Both the position numbers and the translations under genes were made by a program. Below the pieces are notes generated by a model that did no database searches, was not told the DNA's origin, and saw only the letters and a program-made list of their open reading frames with translations. Shown here piece after piece: positions 2,347 to 19,993 of a stretch of 64,000 bases of DNA (positions within the stretch are counted from its first letter, which is position 1; every line of letters starts with the position of its first letter). The DNA comes from Glycomyces luteolus (lineage in GTDB: Bacteria; Actinomycetota; Actinomycetes; Mycobacteriales; Micromonosporaceae), in assembly GCF_027622875.1 (NCBI RefSeq), contig NZ_JAPZVP010000005.1, positions 151,349 through 215,348 of the forward strand, given 5' to 3'.

Positions 2347-3342
2347 ATGGTGACGATGAGCGACGTGGCGCGGCTGGCCGGGGTGTCGAAGATGACGGTA
2401 TCCAATGTGGTCAACAACCGGCCCGGGGTGAGCGACCCCGTGCGCCGGCGCGTGCTCGAAGCCGTCCAGCAGTCCGGTTACCGCCTCAACGTCAACGCCC
2501 GCACACTGAAGGCGGGGCGCACCGGGGTGATCGGCCTAGCGGTGCCCGGCGTCGACCAGCCGTACTTCGGGATGCTCGGCGAGCACGTGATCGCGGCGGC
2601 GGGGGCCAAGGGCTTCCACGTGGCGATCGAGCAGACCGGCGCGGCGGCCGAAGGCGAGGCCGAGGCGATCAGCCAGTCCCACCGGCTGCAGTTCGACGGG
2701 CTCATCCTGAGCGCGGTGATCCTCGACCCGCGCGAGCAGCCCGGCAGCTGGAAGGACTTCCCGATCGTGCTGCTGGGCGAGCGCGACTTCGGCCAGACCA
2801 TGGACCACGTGGGCATGGACAACGAGGCCGGTTCGCGCGCGGCCACCGAGCACCTCATCGAGCGCGGCTGCACCCGGATCGCGAACGTCACCGGCTGGAG
2901 CCTCGAGGGCGTGCACGTCGGCTCGCGCCGCCATCGCGGCTACACGGACGCGCTCAAGGCCGCCGGGATCCCGGTAGACCCGACGCTGGTGTGCCTGTCC
3001 GGCATGGGCCAGGAGACCGGCCGCAGGGCGGTGCACGACCTCCACGAGGCGGGCGTCGACTTCGACGGCGTCGTCGCCATCACCGACACCGTCGCGATCG
3101 GCGTCATCCGCGGCCTGGCGGACCTGGGCCTGCGCTGCCCCGAGGACGTGCGCGTCATCGGCTTCGACGACATCTCCGTGTCAGAGTTCCTCTCACCTTC
3201 GCTCTCCACTGTGGCCCCCGATCACCGGTGGATGGCCGAGAAGGCCGTGGAGCTCATCGCCGCACGCCTCGAGGACCCGGACCGGCCCCCCGAAGTGCAC
3301 ACGGCCCCGTTCGAACTCAAGATCCGCGAGTCCACCCGCTGA
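2347..3342 (+). CDS. LacI family transcriptional regulator
   Basis: This 331-residue protein has the LacI N-terminal helix-turn-helix (SDVARLAGVSKMTVSNVVNN) and hinge, followed by a periplasmic-binding-like effector domain (VIGLAVPGVDQPYFG at about 60-75, IGFDDISVSEF near 275). Family members repress sugar genes and release DNA on binding a sugar. It sits 40 bp behind the GH51 arabinofuranosidase on the same strand, so arabinose or an arabino-oligosaccharide is a reasonable effector guess, but this is inference. A purine-rich stretch (AGAGGCGG) precedes the ATG at 2347. The next in-frame Met, at residue 4, is a possible alternative start. Confidence 0.92.
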   Translation: MVTMSDVARLAGVSKMTVSNVVNNRPGVSDPVRRRVLEAVQQSGYRLNVNARTLKAGRTGVIGLAVPGVDQPYFGMLGEHVIAAAGAKGFHVAIEQTGAAAEGEAEAISQSHRLQFDGLILSAVILDPREQPGSWKDFPIVLLGERDFGQTMDHVGMDNEAGSRAATEHLIERGCTRIANVTGWSLEGVHVGSRRHRGYTDALKAAGIPVDPTLVCLSGMGQETGRRAVHDLHEAGVDFDGVVAITDTVAIGVIRGLADLGLRCPEDVRVIGFDDISVSEFLSPSLSTVAPDHRWMAEKAVELIAARLEDPDRPPEVHTAPFELKIRESTR

Positions 3343-3376
3343 ATCCGCCGCCCGGCCTGCCTCGGCCGAGCCGCGC

Positions 3377-4372
3377 TCAGCGCACGGTGGCCACCAGTTT
3401 GCCGAACTGCGCGCCCTGCTCCATGTGGCGGTGGGCGTCGGCGATGTCGCCGAGGGCGAAGACCCGGTCGATCGTCGGCGTGAACGTGCCGTCACGCAGT
3501 CCAGAGCCGATGAACGCCACCGCCACGCGCAGCCGTTCGGGATTGCGGGTGATCTCGTGGACGAGGAACGTGCGCATGTTCAAGGCGGGCATGCCGAGGT
3601 CGAAGCCCGGGTAGGGCGTCGGCTGGCCGGAGAGCGCGCCGTAGAGGAACAGGGTGCCGTCGCGGGCCACGGCGCCGGCGAGGTCGGTGACGCCGGGCCC
3701 GGCGACGGCGTCGAAGGCGAATTCGGCGCCGCGGCCGTCGGTGTGTTCGAGGATGCCGGCGGCGAGGTCCTCCTCATCGGTGACGATCACGTGGGCCGCA
3801 CCGGCTTTCAGCAGCGCATCCTTTTTGGACCGGGTTCGGGTGGTCGCGATGGGAACCGCGCCGAGCCGGTTCGCGATCTGGATCGCGGCGAGGCCGACGC
3901 TGCTGGAGGCGGCGGTGATCACCGCTGTATCGCCGGGCCGGATGCCGCCGATCTGGGAGAGCGCCCCGTAGGCCGTGAGGTACGGCATCCACACTGCCGC
4001 GCTCTCGACGGCGTCGAGCGATGCGGGACGGGCGATGAGTGCGGCGGCCGGGACCACGGCGCGTTCGGCGTACACGCCGTAGTCGTTCATCGAGAACATC
4101 GGAATCACGCTGACGGCTTGCCCCGCATGGAATCCGGTGACCCCCTCCCCGAGCGACTCGATGACTCCTGCGGCCTCGGCACCCAGGCGGGCCGGGAAGG
4201 ACCGGGCCTGCTCGATGTAGACCCCGCTGCGGAACAGCGCTTCGGCCCGGTTGAGGCCGACGGCCTCGATCCGGATCATCGCCTCGCCCGGCCCGGGCTC
4301 GCCCGCAGGGACGTCCTCGACGCGCAGCACCTCGGGGCCGCCGTATTCGTGGAAGCGCACCGTCTTGGCCAT
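3377..4372 (-). CDS. zinc-independent medium-chain alcohol dehydrogenase/quinone oxidoreductase
   Basis: A 331-residue MDR-superfamily oxidoreductase of the quinone-reductase type, expected to use NADPH. It begins KTVRFHEYGGPEVLRVEDVP, which is characteristic, and has a Rossmann segment around DTAVITAASSSVGLAAIQIANRLGA with the AxxxxVG dinucleotide fingerprint. I see no structural-zinc Cys cluster. I start at 4372 (MAKTV) because AAGGAG lies six bases upstream, rather than at the in-frame ATG five codons earlier. It diverges from an ArsR-family regulator across a short gap with palindromes, so induction by release of that repressor is likely. The substrate is unknown. Confidence 0.88.
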   Translation of the reverse strand: MAKTVRFHEYGGPEVLRVEDVPAGEPGPGEAMIRIEAVGLNRAEALFRSGVYIEQARSFPARLGAEAAGVIESLGEGVTGFHAGQAVSVIPMFSMNDYGVYAERAVVPAAALIARPASLDAVESAAVWMPYLTAYGALSQIGGIRPGDTAVITAASSSVGLAAIQIANRLGAVPIATTRTRSKKDALLKAGAAHVIVTDEEDLAAGILEHTDGRGAEFAFDAVAGPGVTDLAGAVARDGTLFLYGALSGQPTPYPGFDLGMPALNMRTFLVHEITRNPERLRVAVAFIGSGLRDGTFTPTIDRVFALGDIADAHRHMEQGAQFGKLVATVR

Positions 4373-13598: not shown

Positions 13599-14564
13599 AT
13601 GGCACCGCACCGCGTGGTCGTCGTCGGCTACGACGACGCCGAACTCCTCGACATCGCCTGCGTCACGACCACATTGGACGCGGTCCGCGTGATCGATCCG
13701 GCGCTCGGCTACGACCTGGCCCTGGCGACCCCCGGCGGGGGTCCGATCACCTGCTCGACCGGACTGGTCCTCAACGGCCAGACGGCGTTGGAACGACTTC
13801 GCGGCCCTATCGGGACGCTCGTCGTCTCCGGCGGGCTCGGACATGAGCGCGCGGCCGGCGACGAGCGGCTCGTGGGCCACGTGCGGCGGCTCGCCCGCGA
13901 GAGCGAACGGGTCGCTTCGCTGTGCACCGGCGCGAGCGTCCTCGCGGCGGCGGGTCTTCTCGACGGGAAGCGCGCGACCACTCACTGGCACTTCGCGAAG
14001 CGCCTCGCCGAGCAGTACGAGCGGGTCGAGGTGGATCCGCGGCCGATCTGGGTGCGGGACGGGAACGTCTACACCGCAGCGGGAGTGACCAGCGCGCTCG
14101 ACCTGGCGCTGTCGTTCATAGAAGCCGACTTCGGGCCGGACCTGGCCCGCTGGGTCTCCCGCGCGATGGTCACCTACCTGCACCGGCCCGGCAATCAGGC
14201 GCAGATGAGCATGTTCACGGCCGCTCCGGCGGTGGACCACGACGTGGTCCGCAAGGTCGCCGACCATGTCAGCGAACACCTGGACGGCGATCTGTCCGCA
14301 GAGGCCCTGGCGGGGGTGGCGCGAGTGAGCCCAAGGCATCTGACCCGCCTGTTCCGCACGCATCTGCGCCAGACGCCGGGCCGCTTCGTCCGGCAGGCGC
14401 GCGTGACCGCTGCGGCGCAACTGCTCTCGACCACGGATCTGCCGGTGGCCCGGGTGGCGGCGCGGTGCGGTTTCGCTTCGGCGGAGGCGCTGCGCCAGGC
14501 GTTCACCCGGGAGTACGGTCTCGCACCGTCGCAGTACCGGGCGGTGGCCGCGACCGCGGGCTGA
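13599..14564 (+). CDS. GlxA-type AraC family regulator with DJ-1/PfpI domain
   Basis: A 321-residue regulator. The N-terminal half (about 1-190) is a DJ-1/PfpI-like domain, with the nucleophile-elbow-like motif SLCTGASVLAAAGLL (Cys about 108) followed by the TTHWHFAKRLAE stretch typical of the GlxA family. The C-terminal half is an AraC helix-turn-helix pair (SAEALAGVARVSPRHLTRLFRTH and VARVAARCGFASAEALRQAFTREYG). Such regulators often control glycine betaine, carnitine or nitrile metabolism in other bacteria, but no such genes are adjacent. It faces the membrane-protein gene divergently; the 134-bp gap contains the CsoR-like site near the other gene. Confidence 0.92.
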   Translation: MAPHRVVVVGYDDAELLDIACVTTTLDAVRVIDPALGYDLALATPGGGPITCSTGLVLNGQTALERLRGPIGTLVVSGGLGHERAAGDERLVGHVRRLARESERVASLCTGASVLAAAGLLDGKRATTHWHFAKRLAEQYERVEVDPRPIWVRDGNVYTAAGVTSALDLALSFIEADFGPDLARWVSRAMVTYLHRPGNQAQMSMFTAAPAVDHDVVRKVADHVSEHLDGDLSAEALAGVARVSPRHLTRLFRTHLRQTPGRFVRQARVTAAAQLLSTTDLPVARVAARCGFASAEALRQAFTREYGLAPSQYRAVAATAG

Positions 14565-14621
14565 GTCGCGTTCGGGTGCAGTAGCCTGTGGCGGCATCGT
14601 CACCACGACCCGCGACCGCCG

Positions 14622-15200
14622 TCAGCTCCTCAGGCCGTCGAAGAGGAGGTCGAGGGCGCGGCGGCGGAACCGCTCGTCCCAGTCGGCGGCGATCGCCTCC
14701 TGGCACAGTGCGGCGAGCAGCGGGATCAGCTCATCGGTGCGCAGGTCCTCGCGGACGACGCCGCCGTCTCGGGCCCGGTCGAGGAGGACGTCGACGGAGG
14801 GCCGCAGGCGCTCGAGGGCGTCGCCGACGCGGACCTGGACTCCGGTCTCGGCCAGCCGCTCGAAGACGGTCCGGTGGGTGGCGCCGACGGACATGACGAG
14901 GGCGCAGAACTCGAACAGGGCGGCCCCGTCGCCCTGTTCGCGGACCATCGTGTCGGCTTCGTCGATCAGCCGGTCCAGGAGGTTCATCACCACGGCCTTG
15001 AGCAGGTCCGGCTTGGTCGGGAAGTGCCGGAAGACGGTGCCGATCGCGACCCCGGCCCGGGCGGCCACGGCATCGGTCGCGGCGGACGCGCCATGCTCGG
15101 CGAACACCGCCTCCGCCGCCTCCAGGATCCGCGCCCGATTGCGCCGGGCGTCGGCGCGCACCGGCCGTTCCCCCTTGGGCACCATGCCGTCTCGGCTCAT
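14622..15200 (-). CDS. TetR family regulator
   Basis: A 192-residue TetR protein with the N-terminal helix-turn-helix RARILEAAEAVFAEHGASAATDAVAARAGVAIGTVFRHFPTK (shown here in part: AGVAIGTVFRHFPTK) and a helical ligand domain. I place the start at 15200 (MSRDGMVPKG), where AAGGGGG sits upstream; an ATG 12 codons earlier is less likely because it would run into the operator. It is divergent from a SnoaL-like gene and the gap contains a perfect 17-bp dyad, so it is probably an autoregulated repressor of that gene. Confidence 0.88.
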   Translation of the reverse strand: MSRDGMVPKGERPVRADARRNRARILEAAEAVFAEHGASAATDAVAARAGVAIGTVFRHFPTKPDLLKAVVMNLLDRLIDEADTMVREQGDGAALFEFCALVMSVGATHRTVFERLAETGVQVRVGDALERLRPSVDVLLDRARDGGVVREDLRTDELIPLLAALCQEAIAADWDERFRRRALDLLFDGLRS

Positions 15201-15220
15201 CCGCCAATCCCCCTTGCCAA

Positions 15221-15237
15221 AGTGAGTGCCACTCACT
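15221..15237. promoter_or_regulatory. TetR operator candidate
   Basis: AGTGAGTGCCACTCACT is a perfect dyad with one central base. A weaker half-match, GAGTCCTACTC, follows at about 15250. The position between the divergent TetR and SnoaL-like genes fits an autorepressor site. Confidence 0.8.
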
Positions 15238-15283
15238 ATATTCGAAATCGAGTCCTACTCATCTTAGTTCCGGAGGCACCGCC

Positions 15284-15721
15284 ATGTCCCGCGCGACTCC
15301 CCTCGAGACCTACCGCCGGATGCAGGCGGCCGTGCTCCGCGAGGACGGCGCCACGCTTCTCCCGGCCGACCTGCTGGCCGACGACATCGTGGTCGAGACC
15401 CCTTTCTCCCCACCGGGAATGCGACGCCACGAAGGCCGCGAAGCCTGGCTCGAGTTCTACGCGGGCAGGCCGCTGCCGTTCCGCTTCGAAGAGTTCCGCG
15501 AGCTCACCACCTTCGAGACCGCCGACCCCGAGGTCCTCGTCGTCGAATACGAACTCGCCGGCACGATCACCACCACCGGCGTCCGCGCATCGGCGACCTT
15601 CATCGCGGTCCTGCGCGTCCGCGAGGGCCGGATCCTGCACTGGCGCGAATACCAGGACGTCCTCGCCATCAGCCAAGCCCTGAGCCTCGGACCGGAAGAC
15701 CTCGGCACGCCCGCCCGATAA
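15284..15721 (+). CDS. SnoaL-like/NTF2-fold protein
   Basis: A 145-residue alpha+beta-barrel protein of the NTF2/SnoaL group (TPLETYRRMQAAVLREDGATL at the N-terminus, GMRRHEGREAWLEFYA, then ILHWREYQDVLAIS near the C-terminus). Members include polyketide cyclases and ketosteroid isomerases, but most small stand-alone ones have unknown substrates. A GGAGG-like motif (TTCCGGAGGCACCGCC) precedes the ATG. Divergence from the TetR gene and the shared operator suggest induction by a small organic ligand of TetR. Confidence 0.85.
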   Translation: MSRATPLETYRRMQAAVLREDGATLLPADLLADDIVVETPFSPPGMRRHEGREAWLEFYAGRPLPFRFEEFRELTTFETADPEVLVVEYELAGTITTTGVRASATFIAVLRVREGRILHWREYQDVLAISQALSLGPEDLGTPAR

Positions 15722-15736
15722 TCGCATCGCGAAATT

Positions 15737-15806
15737 CGTGTAGTTCGAGCTACACGCTTTTCGTGTACCTCCAACTACACGAATTTCGTGTAGTCTCGAC
15801 TACACG
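15737..15806. repeat. three tandem 20-bp palindromes in exact 25-bp register
   Basis: Unit 1 is 15737-15756 (CGTGTAGTTCGAGCTACACG), unit 2 is 15762-15781 (CGTGTACCTCCAACTACACG) and unit 3 is 15787-15806 (CGTGTAGTCTCGACTACACG). The outer arms are CGTGTA/TACACG in all, extended by TT/AA on one or both sides. The last unit ends ten bases before the Shine-Dalgarno of the ATPase gene. The array fills most of the 105-bp gap between the SnoaL-like gene and the ATPase gene. Each unit could be a protein-binding site or an RNA hairpin. Confidence 0.9.
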
Positions 15807-15826
15807 AATTCAAGCGGAGGTGCTCC

Positions 15827-17293
15827 ATGCGCAAGCCGGACTCGATCATCGGCCGCGACCTCGAATGGCAGGTCCTCGAACGGTTCCTGCGCGACAGCGG
15901 CGACGCCACGCTCAAGATCGGCATCGTCTCCGGACGCCGCCGCGCGGGCAAGACCCACCTGCTGACCGCCGCGGCCAAGGCCGTCGGCGGGCTCTACCAC
16001 GTGTGCGTCCAGGAGGAGGGCGACCTCTCCGCCCGCGCCCGGTTCGCCTCGGGGATCAGCGCCCACGGCGGGATAGCCGGCGCCTCCACGGCCGACTGGG
16101 AGTCCCTGCTCACGAGCGCGCTGGAAGTGGCCGCGCGAACCACCCCGGGCGGCCGGCCGCCGCTGCTGATCATCGACGAGTTCCCTTACGCCATGGCGAA
16201 AGCGCCCCACCTGCCCGGCATCCTCCAGCTCCTCTACGACCGCGCGCAGCGCGGCGAGGCGCCGGGCGGGCGGGTCATCCTCTGCGGCTCCTCCCTCAGC
16301 GTCATGCGCGAGCTCCTGTCCGGGACGAAGCCGCTGCGGGGCCGCGCCATGGTCGACCTCAAGCTCGGTCCGCTCGACTACCGGCAGACCGCCGAACTCT
16401 GGGGGATCGCCGACGCCGAGACCAACCTGAAGGTCCACTCGTGCGTCGGCGGCTACCCCGGTTACAAGCGGCTCATCGACCGCGTGCCCCATAACCCGGC
16501 CGAATTCGAGCAATGGGTGCCCGACACCCTGCTGAGCACCGGTTTCGGCGCGTTCACCACCGCCGAGGTGGACTACCTGCTCCGCGAGGACCCGCGCATC
16601 ACCGACCGCTCGGCGTACCACGACGTGCTCGGGGCGATCGCCCGCGGATCGACCACGCTCGCCAAGATCGGCGCCGAGACCGGACGCAGCAAGGACGCGG
16701 TCCGGCCGCTGCTCAGCACCCTCGAAGCCAGCAGCTACGTCGCCCGCCGCCCCGACCTGGTGCGCGGGCGCAGCTCGATCGCAGTGCGGGACCCGATCAT
16801 CCGCTTCGACCGGCTCATCACCGCCCCCCGCGCGGGTCAGCTCGAACTGGGGCGCTCGGTCCAGGTCTGGAACGCCATGCGCGACACGTTCCGGTCGCAG
16901 ATCCTCGGCCCGCACTTCGAAGAGCTGTCCCGGGAATGGGTGCACCGCTTCGCACCCGACGAACTCGACCGCCCCGAGGGCTTCGGCGAGGTCGGCACCG
17001 GGAACGTCCACGACAACGCGGGCCGCGCCAAGTTCGAAGTCGATGTGCTTGCGGTCGAAGGAAAGACAGTCAATTTCATCGGCGAGGCGAAGGCGACCGG
17101 CCAGCGCCAGGGCGCCGCGGCGCTGGCCCGGCTCCAGGAGATCCGCGACGCGCTCGCCCGACTCGGCTACCGCACCGACCGGGCGGTGCTGGGAGTGTTC
17201 TCCCTGACCGGTTTCAGCCCCGACCTCACCGCGGCGGCCGCGCACGACCCGGCAGTGGCGCTCGTCGGCCTGGACCGCCTCTACAGCGGGTGA
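15827..17293 (+). CDS. archaeal-type ATPase with C-terminal DUF234/PD-(D/E)xK-like domain
   Basis: A 488-residue protein of the MNS/ATPase_2 clade of STAND-like P-loop ATPases. The Walker A is SGRRRAGKTHL (about 37-47), the Walker B is LLIIDEFPY (about 119-127), and the sensor-like GGRVILCGSSLS follows. A winged-helix segment lies at about 260-310 (GAIARGSTTLAKIGAETGRSKDAV). The C-terminus (about 330-488) matches DUF234, with EVDVLAVEG...GEAKATG forming a D-x(n)-ExK pattern like PD-(D/E)xK nucleases. The cellular role of this family is unknown; it is common in archaea and sporadic in bacteria, suggesting transfer. GGAGG lies six bases ahead of the ATG. The three palindromes directly upstream probably control it. 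Its last 13 bp overlap the convergent ATP-grasp gene. Confidence 0.85.
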   Translation: MRKPDSIIGRDLEWQVLERFLRDSGDATLKIGIVSGRRRAGKTHLLTAAAKAVGGLYHVCVQEEGDLSARARFASGISAHGGIAGASTADWESLLTSALEVAARTTPGGRPPLLIIDEFPYAMAKAPHLPGILQLLYDRAQRGEAPGGRVILCGSSLSVMRELLSGTKPLRGRAMVDLKLGPLDYRQTAELWGIADAETNLKVHSCVGGYPGYKRLIDRVPHNPAEFEQWVPDTLLSTGFGAFTTAEVDYLLREDPRITDRSAYHDVLGAIARGSTTLAKIGAETGRSKDAVRPLLSTLEASSYVARRPDLVRGRSSIAVRDPIIRFDRLITAPRAGQLELGRSVQVWNAMRDTFRSQILGPHFEELSREWVHRFAPDELDRPEGFGEVGTGNVHDNAGRAKFEVDVLAVEGKTVNFIGEAKATGQRQGAAALARLQEIRDALARLGYRTDRAVLGVFSLTGFSPDLTAAAAHDPAVALVGLDRLYSG

Positions 17294-18165
17294 GGCGCAC
17301 GCAGGAGCGCTCGGAGGAGCGGCTCCGGGTCGGTGCCTCGGGGGAAGTCGCTGACCTGGCCGTCGCCCACTTCGATCACCCTCCAGCGGCCGTCGGTGCG
17401 CTGCGCGAGGTCGGTGGTGATGAACGGGCAGCCCAGGGCCGCGACGGCTGCCGCGATGCCGGTGAGGTCGGGTGCGACCGCGGTCCCCGGCTGGTCCGGG
17501 TGCGGGCCGACCACGACCGGTTCGCCTCGCACCCACCAGACCCGGGCCTCCGCCGCCCGGCCGGAGGAGCCGATGAAGTCCTCGAAGGCGCGCACGACGA
17601 GGCCTCCGGCGAGATCGGCGCCCTGGCGCTCGATGAAGGTCGCGGCGGTCTCGTGCAGGGACGCGGTGTCGGCGAGGTCGTCGACGAAGCACGCCTCCGG
17701 TTCGCTCTTGCGGGACTTCACGTAGTCCTTGACCATTCCCGGCCCGCTCGGCAGCTCCCCCGCCAGCGCGGCCAGCACCCCGTCGTCGGGAATCTGCCTC
17801 GGCTCCAAGGGCATCCATCGGCTCGCCGGAGTCAAGGCGGCGAAGGCGCCGTACCAGCCGGGCAGTTCATGCGCTGCCCGGTACTGCCCGGGGGCGGTGG
17901 CCAGGTGGACCCCGCGAGCGGTGAGCGCCCGGTGCAGTCCGGCGTACTGGTCGCCCGTCGCCATCCAGCCCCGGTACCAGGCTTGGCCGAGGCCGGAGGG
18001 GACCCGTGCCACCGCCCGCGCGGTCTCGCCGCGGGTCAAAGCGTCGTGGTCGATCAGCGCGATCGGTGCGCCGAACCCGGCCGCCAGGGCCGCCTCGGCG
18101 GCGTAGTGCTCGTCGGGGCGGCGCGGGGCGAGCATGTCGGCGCAGTACAGGATGGCGGCGGGCAT
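17281..18165 (-). CDS. ATP-grasp protein, R2K clade (DUF4343-like)
   Basis: A 294-residue protein of the ATP-grasp superfamily, R2K clade: VKDYVKSRKSEPEACFVDD in the middle carries the paired Lys/Arg residues, and the C-terminal WRVIEVGDGQVSDFPRG carries the metal-binding Glu/Asp of the fold. R2K ATP-grasp enzymes have been proposed to ligate amino acids or tag peptides, often near mobile or toxin genes, but the substrate here is unknown. The gene stands alone and is convergent with the DUF234 ATPase, overlapping it by 13 bp at the stop codons. There is no obvious Shine-Dalgarno, so the start is less certain than the family. Confidence 0.8.
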   Translation of the reverse strand: MPAAILYCADMLAPRRPDEHYAAEAALAAGFGAPIALIDHDALTRGETARAVARVPSGLGQAWYRGWMATGDQYAGLHRALTARGVHLATAPGQYRAAHELPGWYGAFAALTPASRWMPLEPRQIPDDGVLAALAGELPSGPGMVKDYVKSRKSEPEACFVDDLADTASLHETAATFIERQGADLAGGLVVRAFEDFIGSSGRAAEARVWWVRGEPVVVGPHPDQPGTAVAPDLTGIAAAVAALGCPFITTDLAQRTDGRWRVIEVGDGQVSDFPRGTDPEPLLRALLRAPHPL

Positions 18166-18197
18166 CTCGAAATGCTAACCGCTTGCCGCCGGGTCGA

Positions 18198-18650
18198 TCA
18201 GGTGACGCCGCCCCGCGAGCGGCCGCTGCAGAGCGCCTCGCTGGTGTCCGCGGTGCAGACCACGACGCTCGCGGACAGGCCCTCGTCGAAGCTCAGGTTG
18301 AAGTCGGTGCACTGGCCGCTGCCGGAGCTGCGGTACGTCGCGGTGCCGTTGCCCGCCACGGTGAGTCGAGCGATCGTGCTGTGGCCGTTCGGGTAGTGGT
18401 CGCAGACGATGAGGTGCTCGCCGTCGGCGTTGAAGCGGGCCGAGACCCGGTTCCCCGACGACGAGCAGGTGGCGAAGACGTCGACGCCGCCGGCGTCGCC
18501 GCTGTCGGCGTTCTTGCCGCCGCTGCACGTCCATGGGGCCCGCAAGTCGGTCTGCGCCTGCGCGGGCGCCGCCGCGAAAGCGCCGGTGAGCAGCAGGGCC
18601 GTCGTAGCGGCCGCGGTGGTGCAGCGGCGCGCGAGGGATCGCGTGTCCAT
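18198..18650 (-). CDS. small secreted protein of unknown function
   Basis: A 150-residue protein with a signal peptide (RRCTTAAATTALLLTGAFAAAPAQA, cleaved near residue 32; quoted in part as TTALLLTGAFAAAPAQA). The mature portion contains about six Cys (for example WTCSGG, FATCSSS, IVCDHYPNG, QCTDF, VVCTAD, ALCSG), suggesting three disulfides and a compact extracellular fold. I do not recognise the family. AGGAGG lies four bases ahead of the ATG at 18650. It follows the GH1/MFS pair on the same strand with a 68-bp gap. Confidence 0.75.
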   Translation of the reverse strand: MDTRSLARRCTTAAATTALLLTGAFAAAPAQAQTDLRAPWTCSGGKNADSGDAGGVDVFATCSSSGNRVSARFNADGEHLIVCDHYPNGHSTIARLTVAGNGTATYRSSGSGQCTDFNLSFDEGLSASVVVCTADTSEALCSGRSRGGVT

Positions 18651-18718
18651 CGTTCCTCCTGAGATGCGGCACGTGCCTCCGACGCTACCCGCCGCGTGCG
18701 ACCCGGTGGGTACGCGCC

Positions 18719-19993
18719 TCAGCGCACGGACTTGATGGGCCACACCAGGATGCCCCCGAGGAGGGTCGCTATCGCGCTCAAGGCGTAGAGCGCCGAGTAC
18801 CCGCCGAGGCCCGCCACGATCGGGGCGGCGAGGGCCGGGCCGAGGACTTGCGGCGCGGTGGAGGCGATGTTGATGATGCCGAGGTCTTTGGCGCGGTCGG
18901 TCGCGGCCGGGAGGACCTGGGTGATGAGGGCCTGGTCGACGGAGAGGTAGATGCCGAAGCCCGCGCCCATGATCGCGGCGGCGGCGATCGCGGCGGGCCA
19001 AGTGTGCCAGAACGTCAGCAGCAGCGCGGCCGCGGTCATGACCGCGGAAGACACGACCACAAGCGGTTTGCGTCGGCCGATCCGGTCGGAGAGCACGCCG
19101 CCCGCGACGGAGGTCGCGACGACGCCGCCGGTGTACAGGAGCGTCAGGATGAGGACGCCCTCGTCGGCGCTGTGCCCGGGGAAGAGCTCCTCGTAGTGCA
19201 CGGCGTCCTGCAGGAAGAACAGCAGGTAGAGGGTGCCGGTGGCGTTGCCGAGCATAACGAGGAAGCGGGTGAACCAGGCCCAGGCGAAGTCCGGGTGGGC
19301 GCGCGGCGAGACCCAGAACGTCGCGAGGAGGGCCCGCCACGAGAACGGAGGGCGCGCGGCGCGCGACAGCGGCGGGTCCGGAGTGGACAGCACGAACGGG
19401 AGGGCCATCACCAAGGCGGCCAAGCCGATCACCAGGTAGCCGGTCGGGAGGTCGGTCACCAGCATGGTCACGATGACCGCGCCGACCACCAGTCCGAGCG
19501 CCTGCGGGAAGCCGATCCAGCCGGAGACGACCGCGCGCTGGCGGACCGGCACGTGGTCGGGGATGCCCGCGTTGAGGCTGGCGTATCCGGCGTTGAGGGC
19601 GGCTTGGGCGAGGCACCAGCACAGGAGCACGCCGATGACGGTGGTCTGGAGTCCGAGGAGGCAGAGCCCGGCGGCGCCGACGGCGATGCCGCCGAGGGTC
19701 CACGGGTGGCGGCGGCCGAATCGGCCGGTCGTGCGGTCGGAGAGCGCTCCGGCGAGGGGGTTGGCGACGACGGCGACGAGCGCGCCGAAGCCGGTGACGA
19801 GGCCGAACGCGGCGACTTTGCCGTCCTCGTCGATCTCGGCGAGCTGAAGCGGCAGGAGCACCTGGATCGGGGTGAAGAAGGCCATGTAGAGGCCGAGCAT
19901 CCCGGTGGTGATGCCGCCGATCCAGACCTTCCCGACGTTGTGTTCGGGTTCGGCGAGGGCGGTGGGCGGAGGGGCTTCGGGTGCGGTGGTCAC
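18719..19993 (-). CDS. MFS sugar transporter, GPH/SLC45-like
   Basis: A 424-residue major facilitator protein with about 12 membrane spans. GALSDRTTGRFGRRHPW at the loop after span 2 is the characteristic motif of the glycoside-pentoside-hexuronide/SLC45-type carriers, and GVLSDRIGRRKP repeats the signature in the second half. Its GTG start (19991-19993) overlaps the stop codon of the upstream GH1 beta-glucosidase in a GTGA junction, so the two are translationally coupled. It probably imports beta-glucosides such as cellobiose that the coupled enzyme then hydrolyses in the cytoplasm. Confidence 0.9.
   Translation of the reverse strand: MTTAPEAPPPTALAEPEHNVGKVWIGGITTGMLGLYMAFFTPIQVLLPLQLAEIDEDGKVAAFGLVTGFGALVAVVANPLAGALSDRTTGRFGRRHPWTLGGIAVGAAGLCLLGLQTTVIGVLLCWCLAQAALNAGYASLNAGIPDHVPVRQRAVVSGWIGFPQALGLVVGAVIVTMLVTDLPTGYLVIGLAALVMALPFVLSTPDPPLSRAARPPFSWRALLATFWVSPRAHPDFAWAWFTRFLVMLGNATGTLYLLFFLQDAVHYEELFPGHSADEGVLILTLLYTGGVVATSVAGGVLSDRIGRRKPLVVVSSAVMTAAALLLTFWHTWPAAIAAAAIMGAGFGIYLSVDQALITQVLPAATDRAKDLGIINIASTAPQVLGPALAAPIVAGLGGYSALYALSAIATLLGGILVWPIKSVR

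Follow-up and report, generated by a model that had tools for sequence, protein, structure and literature searches.

Locus and array

In the window, by which we mean the whole stretch of 64,000 nucleotides of Glycomyces luteolus DNA that was analysed, three palindromes of the pattern CGTGTA-N8-TACACG lie in a 105-bp gap between the stop codon of a SnoaL-like gene, which ends at position 15721, and the ATG, at 15827, of a gene for a protein that joins an ATPase, a winged helix and a PD-(D/E)XK-like domain (Table 1). A preliminary description placed the units in exact 25-bp register, and the sequence confirms both the step from start to start and the three starts. The same description gave the centres as 4 to 8 bp and the distance to the Shine-Dalgarno sequence as ten bases. 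The centres do vary, but their length is 8 bp, the outermost centre pair being complementary in units 1 and 3 and unpaired in unit 2; the Shine-Dalgarno sequence is indeed close, but the counted gap between the end of unit 3 and GGAGG is nine bases.

Table 1. Features of the array, its gene and the neighbouring regulator genes (positions in the window)
Feature	Position	Strand	Sequence or basis
AraC gene	13599-14564		
TetR gene	14622-15236		
Array and ATPase gene segment, absent in sister genome G002, where both flanks adjoin	15727-17305	+	
Palindrome unit 1	15737-15756		CGTGTAGTTCGAGCTACACG
Palindrome unit 2	15762-15781		CGTGTACCTCCAACTACACG
Palindrome unit 3	15787-15806		CGTGTAGTCTCGACTACACG
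Putative -10-like hexamer TAGTCT inside unit 3	15791-15796	+	inferred
Shine-Dalgarno-like GGAGG	15816-15820	+	sequence
ATPase - winged helix - PD-(D/E)XK-like protein, 488 aa	15827-17293	+	
AAA/STAND-type ATPase domain, residues 1-235	15827-16531	+	GRRRAGKT, IDEFPY
Winged helix, residues 261-320, candidate array binder	16607-16786	+	weak MarR_2 match; model helix-helix-helix-strand-strand
Putative recognition helix, residues 289-301	16691-16729	+	structure model
PD-(D/E)XK-like nuclease domain, residues 344-487	16856-17287	+	E365, D406, E420, K422

In the 5.74-Mb Glycomyces genome, the only exact matches to the pattern are the three units of the array, where about 0.1 would be expected over the whole genome from base composition. 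When up to three mismatches were allowed, one strand had 85 sites and the other 100; a reversed control pattern gave 89 and 105, which makes these numbers background. A genome-wide regulon was considered and rejected, given that exact sites are confined to the array in the Glycomyces luteolus genome.

In each of the seven orthologs examined, the last palindrome contains a TAnnnT hexamer, which is spelled TAGTCT in the window and in L004, L005, L006 and L011, TACTTT in L018 and TACATT in L008. A sigma-70 scan found no full or good promoter. It is plausible that the hexamer in unit 3 is the -10 element, in which case the transcript would start where the array ends and would not include the palindromes.

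The ATPase protein

The window protein scores 30 bits with the Pfam family ATPase_2 (PF01637), just under the cut-off of 33.2, matches MarR_2 at residues 264-315, below the cut-off, and has no match to PF03008 (DUF234) at E 0.001. Among 29 diverse relatives, 26 match ATPase_2 and 14 match DUF234, and the earlier label of a DUF234-type ATPase thus suits the wider family but not the window protein itself. An AlphaFold model built from nine sequences (mean pLDDT 78) places the winged helix and the nuclease-like domain at the residues listed in Table 1. Because E365, D406 and K422 are invariant in the 29 diverse relatives, and these residues and E420 are conserved among 123 relatives, the nuclease is probably active. 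The Walker motifs are also conserved.

Conservation of the array and transfer with its gene

The preliminary description proposed that the arms are conserved and that the array is tied to the ATPase gene, to be checked in front of close homologs, and both proposals are supported: all orthologs at 63-84% identity carry the same array before the gene. Five Glycomyces homologs (72-84%) and one from Stackebrandtia (63%) have two or three units whose outer arms are identical to those of the window, 25 bp apart wherever both units are intact. In Stackebrandtia, the next arm pair is C-G in place of G-C, and thus the arms change together. At 55-58% identity, in Acrocarpospora and Planomonospora, a differently spelled palindrome occupies the same place (GTAAATGGATTTCACCTT, AAGGTGAAACTGATTTAC and similar). 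The link to the gene is strict, as the six of 22 Glycomyces genomes that have the ortholog are the same six that have the motif, while the other 16 have neither (Fisher p 1.3e-5). One extra motif site occurs in the Glycomyces genome G017; it falls within a hydrolase reading frame and can be put down to chance. The copy of the ATPase gene in Acrocarpospora pleiomorpha (L012, 3001-4469) has a broken reading frame.

The array and the gene are also gained and lost together. In the sister genome G002, the SnoaL-like and R2K ATP-grasp genes directly adjoin, and exactly the array and the ATPase gene are missing, which agrees with the earlier view of a self-contained module; window positions 14626-15726 align with 1512-2617 of L171 (turned), and 17306-18189 with 2612-3489. 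In G007, a different stretch of about 1.15 kb is found in the same slot. The description had also stated that no other regulator adjoins. TetR and AraC genes do lie nearby, but sister genomes separate both from the array, given that the TetR-SnoaL pair occurs without the array and the ATPase in G002, G007 and G018, while in G017 and G004 the array and the ATPase have AraC as a neighbour and TetR is missing. The neighbouring TetR and AraC proteins were rejected as binders on this comparison. As a separate observation, Glycomyces genomes (L170-L179) have a variable slot that corresponds to window positions 14565-18720, from the AraC gene to a gene near 18720; its gene content differs by genome, and a stretch of about 1.1 kb recurs in it in G007, G017, G004 and G005.

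Palindromes across the family

We took the 115 bp before the start codon from 124 relatives, mostly of the same class, and used as controls the stretch 235-350 bp upstream (n = 123), 42 upstream regions of other window genes and 20 shuffles. A palindrome score of at least 10 was reached near the start in 71 of the 124 relatives (57%) vs 2 of 123 (1.6%) further upstream (p 6e-25), and before 4 of the 42 other genes of the window. Judged by this score, the upstream regions of 91 of the 124 relatives beat all 20 shuffles, and about a quarter of the relatives lack a palindrome that does so; some of the starts may be miscalled. The best palindrome ends a median of 14 bp before the start codon, and A+T content is 60% in the palindromes vs 30% in their flanks. 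Direct repeats with a 15-bp step are found in 23% of relatives vs 3% in the control, and those with a 25-bp step in 5% vs 1%. The 25-bp layout, as the rarer of the two, is therefore one variant.

A DNA similarity search for the array on plasmids gave no match. Twelve plasmid relatives were picked by hand and scored without a shuffle control. Immediately before the gene, a palindrome (score 9-20) is present in those from Methanocaldococcus, Cetobacterium, Rhizobium, Mesorhizobium, Bacteroides, Vibrio and Streptomyces; the five others, four haloarchaeal and one from Desulfosarcina, have no clear upstream palindrome by the same score. By eye, relatives from Fusobacteria, Rhizobium and archaea (L158-L169) are preceded by similarly spelled repeats (AATTACTATAATT-like) in steps of about 15 bp, a hint that they share an ancient operator layout. 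One distant relative (L085, upstream of 826) is preceded by a long near-perfect palindrome, AACGTCAGTGACGTACGACGTCACTGACGTT.

Each paralogue has its own spelling of the array. Likeness between arrays is restricted to pairs of proteins more than about 70% identical, and the arrays of paralogues from the same genome are no more alike than those from unrelated genomes at equal protein identity. Similarity of the arrays follows that of the proteins (rank correlation 0.37 for the ATPase domain), while for DNA further upstream the value is -0.02. In partial Mantel tests, the partial correlation with array similarity was 0.08 for the winged helix, no larger than the 0.11 for the ATPase domain, and the covariation thus does not single out the winged helix. 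Two distant paralogues within one genome have differently spelled repeats of their own, CTAACTTAGAAGGAATCTAAGTTAG (L043, upstream of 1459) and GCTATCATGGATGATAGTATC (L044, upstream of 1507), the latter not above shuffles by palindrome score.

Possible roles of the array

The simplest reading of these data is that the ATPase protein itself binds the array. Neighbouring gene families recur in seven loci at most, and this, together with the private arrays, makes the ATPase the most likely binder, as the preliminary description had suggested. Two features of an autoregulated operator are present, namely tandem palindromes adjoining the start of the presumed regulator's gene and a DNA-binding domain, seen as the winged helix in the model and as the weak MarR_2 match. 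We consider it reasonably probable that the array is a private operator bound by the winged helix of the ATPase, for autogenous control that is likely to be repression; the sign of control is probably negative. According to this model, the three palindromes would serve as a DNA operator that covers the region where the gene starts, and the ATPase, as dimers or in a higher oligomeric form, would occupy the units side by side through its winged helices, keeping expression of its own gene low. A change in nucleotide state, or engagement elsewhere, for example by a trigger or a nucleic-acid target, would release the ATPase from the operator, and expression would rise. Array and gene move as one unit of about 1.6 kb.

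An alternative that keeps the same binder is that the ATPase uses the array as an activator or assembly platform, with ATP-driven oligomers on the tandem sites activating transcription or organising the nuclease. MalT and Orc1/Cdc6 oligomerise on their sites in such a manner, the sites here are tandem and evenly spaced, and the structural matches that follow the best one include Orc1/Cdc6 initiators bound to DNA and plant NLR (STAND) proteins. Nevertheless, the likeness to Orc1/Cdc6 is low (TM-score about 0.4), and the array, which would overlie the core promoter at a median distance of 14 bp from the start codon, has a position more usual for repression, so that we regard this role as unlikely. 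Binding by a separate regulator encoded elsewhere, for which the TetR and AraC family genes upstream in the window would be candidates, seems to us distinctly improbable: a private array for each paralogue would demand an unlinked regulator for each, there is no recurrent neighbour, sister genomes have TetR without an accompanying array and the sites are otherwise absent from the genome.

The preliminary description also raised the possibility that the units form RNA hairpins controlling translation, and hairpins that stop transcription may be considered with them. The array strand has a stable fold (-49.9 kcal/mol for 104 nt) and contains two terminator-like matches. RNA pairing, however, tolerates G-U on the sense strand only and should favour G-T mismatches, whereas the arm mismatches in the family palindromes are 53 G-T vs 45 A-C (p 0.48). 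This symmetry argues that selection acts on double-stranded DNA and not on RNA hairpins, and control of translation by hairpins was rejected on that basis. The units also share their arm sequence, beyond complementarity alone, the -10-like hexamer is shared within the last unit, and Rfam returned no family at gathering score, the only match, to a plant microRNA, being weak and well under that score; an RNA role is thus very unlikely. We give hardly any credence to a mobile-element origin, with the palindromes as ends or as target sites. The joint gain and loss of array and gene in a variable slot would fit such an origin, but the array stands at one end only, the empty site in G002 has no clear target duplication and palindromes are rare downstream of family genes (7.5% with a score of at least 10). 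Transposon ends were rejected for want of a second array and of a clear target duplication.

Comparison with known systems

The preliminary description saw in the module the best candidate for an undescribed system, which overstated the case, as the relatives of the protein form a candidate defence family, PDC-S27. In a 2026 survey (PMC12988326), PDC-S27 is a single-gene defence candidate in which an ATPase is joined to a PD-(D/E)XK domain; the survey counts genes of this type in the thousands in archaea and bacteria, and notes that experimental validation is pending for most such PADLOC candidates. The same fusion is seen in the motifs and model fold elements of the window protein, and all 29 diverse relatives match the PDC-S27 profile (best 1.1e-43). 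The window protein differs in that only its residues 6-219, the ATPase part, match the 474-position profile (3e-13, 47.5 bits). By this profile match, the protein appears to be related to the candidate anti-phage family, and it may have a role in defence. The archaeal-type ATPases of ATPase_2 and DUF234 are similarly matched by many relatives, the window protein itself falling short as described above. Its best solved structural match is the Pyrococcus Walker-type ATPase PABY2304 (PDB 2qen, E 2.5e-10), which differs in having 350 residues, with no room for a full nuclease domain, and 18% identity.

The text searched makes no reference to an operator for the PDC-S27 family, and we found no account of the regulation or trigger of PDC-S27-type genes in the literature searched, and no description of a fused regulator with private operators in the limited set of papers searched. 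We tentatively suggest, as a possibility that we hold with less than even confidence, that this bacterial and archaeal family of one-gene ATPase-nucleases is self-controlled through private, co-diverging tandem-palindrome operators, with sensor, effector and repressor in one protein, insulated from paralogues and portable. If true, a regulator fused to an ATPase and a nuclease, with private operators across the family, would be new. If each member binds its own operator, this would explain how one genome can contain many paralogues without cross-control, and the operator would offer a ready binding assay and a reporter for finding the trigger. The more than 100 natural protein-operator pairs would also be good material for a winged-helix DNA-recognition code.

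Operators of this kind have precedents. RptR, which controls a defence island, is an autorepressor that acts on three tandem palindromes near its own start codon, over the -10 box (PMC12255303); it resembles the present case in these three palindromes, but is a separate, small protein whose 6-bp sites are arranged in 9-bp repeats, whereas the regulator presumed here belongs to the ATPase-nuclease itself. For AbiEi/Rv2827c, autoregulation of a toxin-antitoxin/defence module relies on inverted repeats in its promoter (PMC7319586); this system differs in being a two-gene toxin-antitoxin operon with the antitoxin as regulator. Defence-type modules thus do use such operators, and in both examples the regulator is a separate protein.
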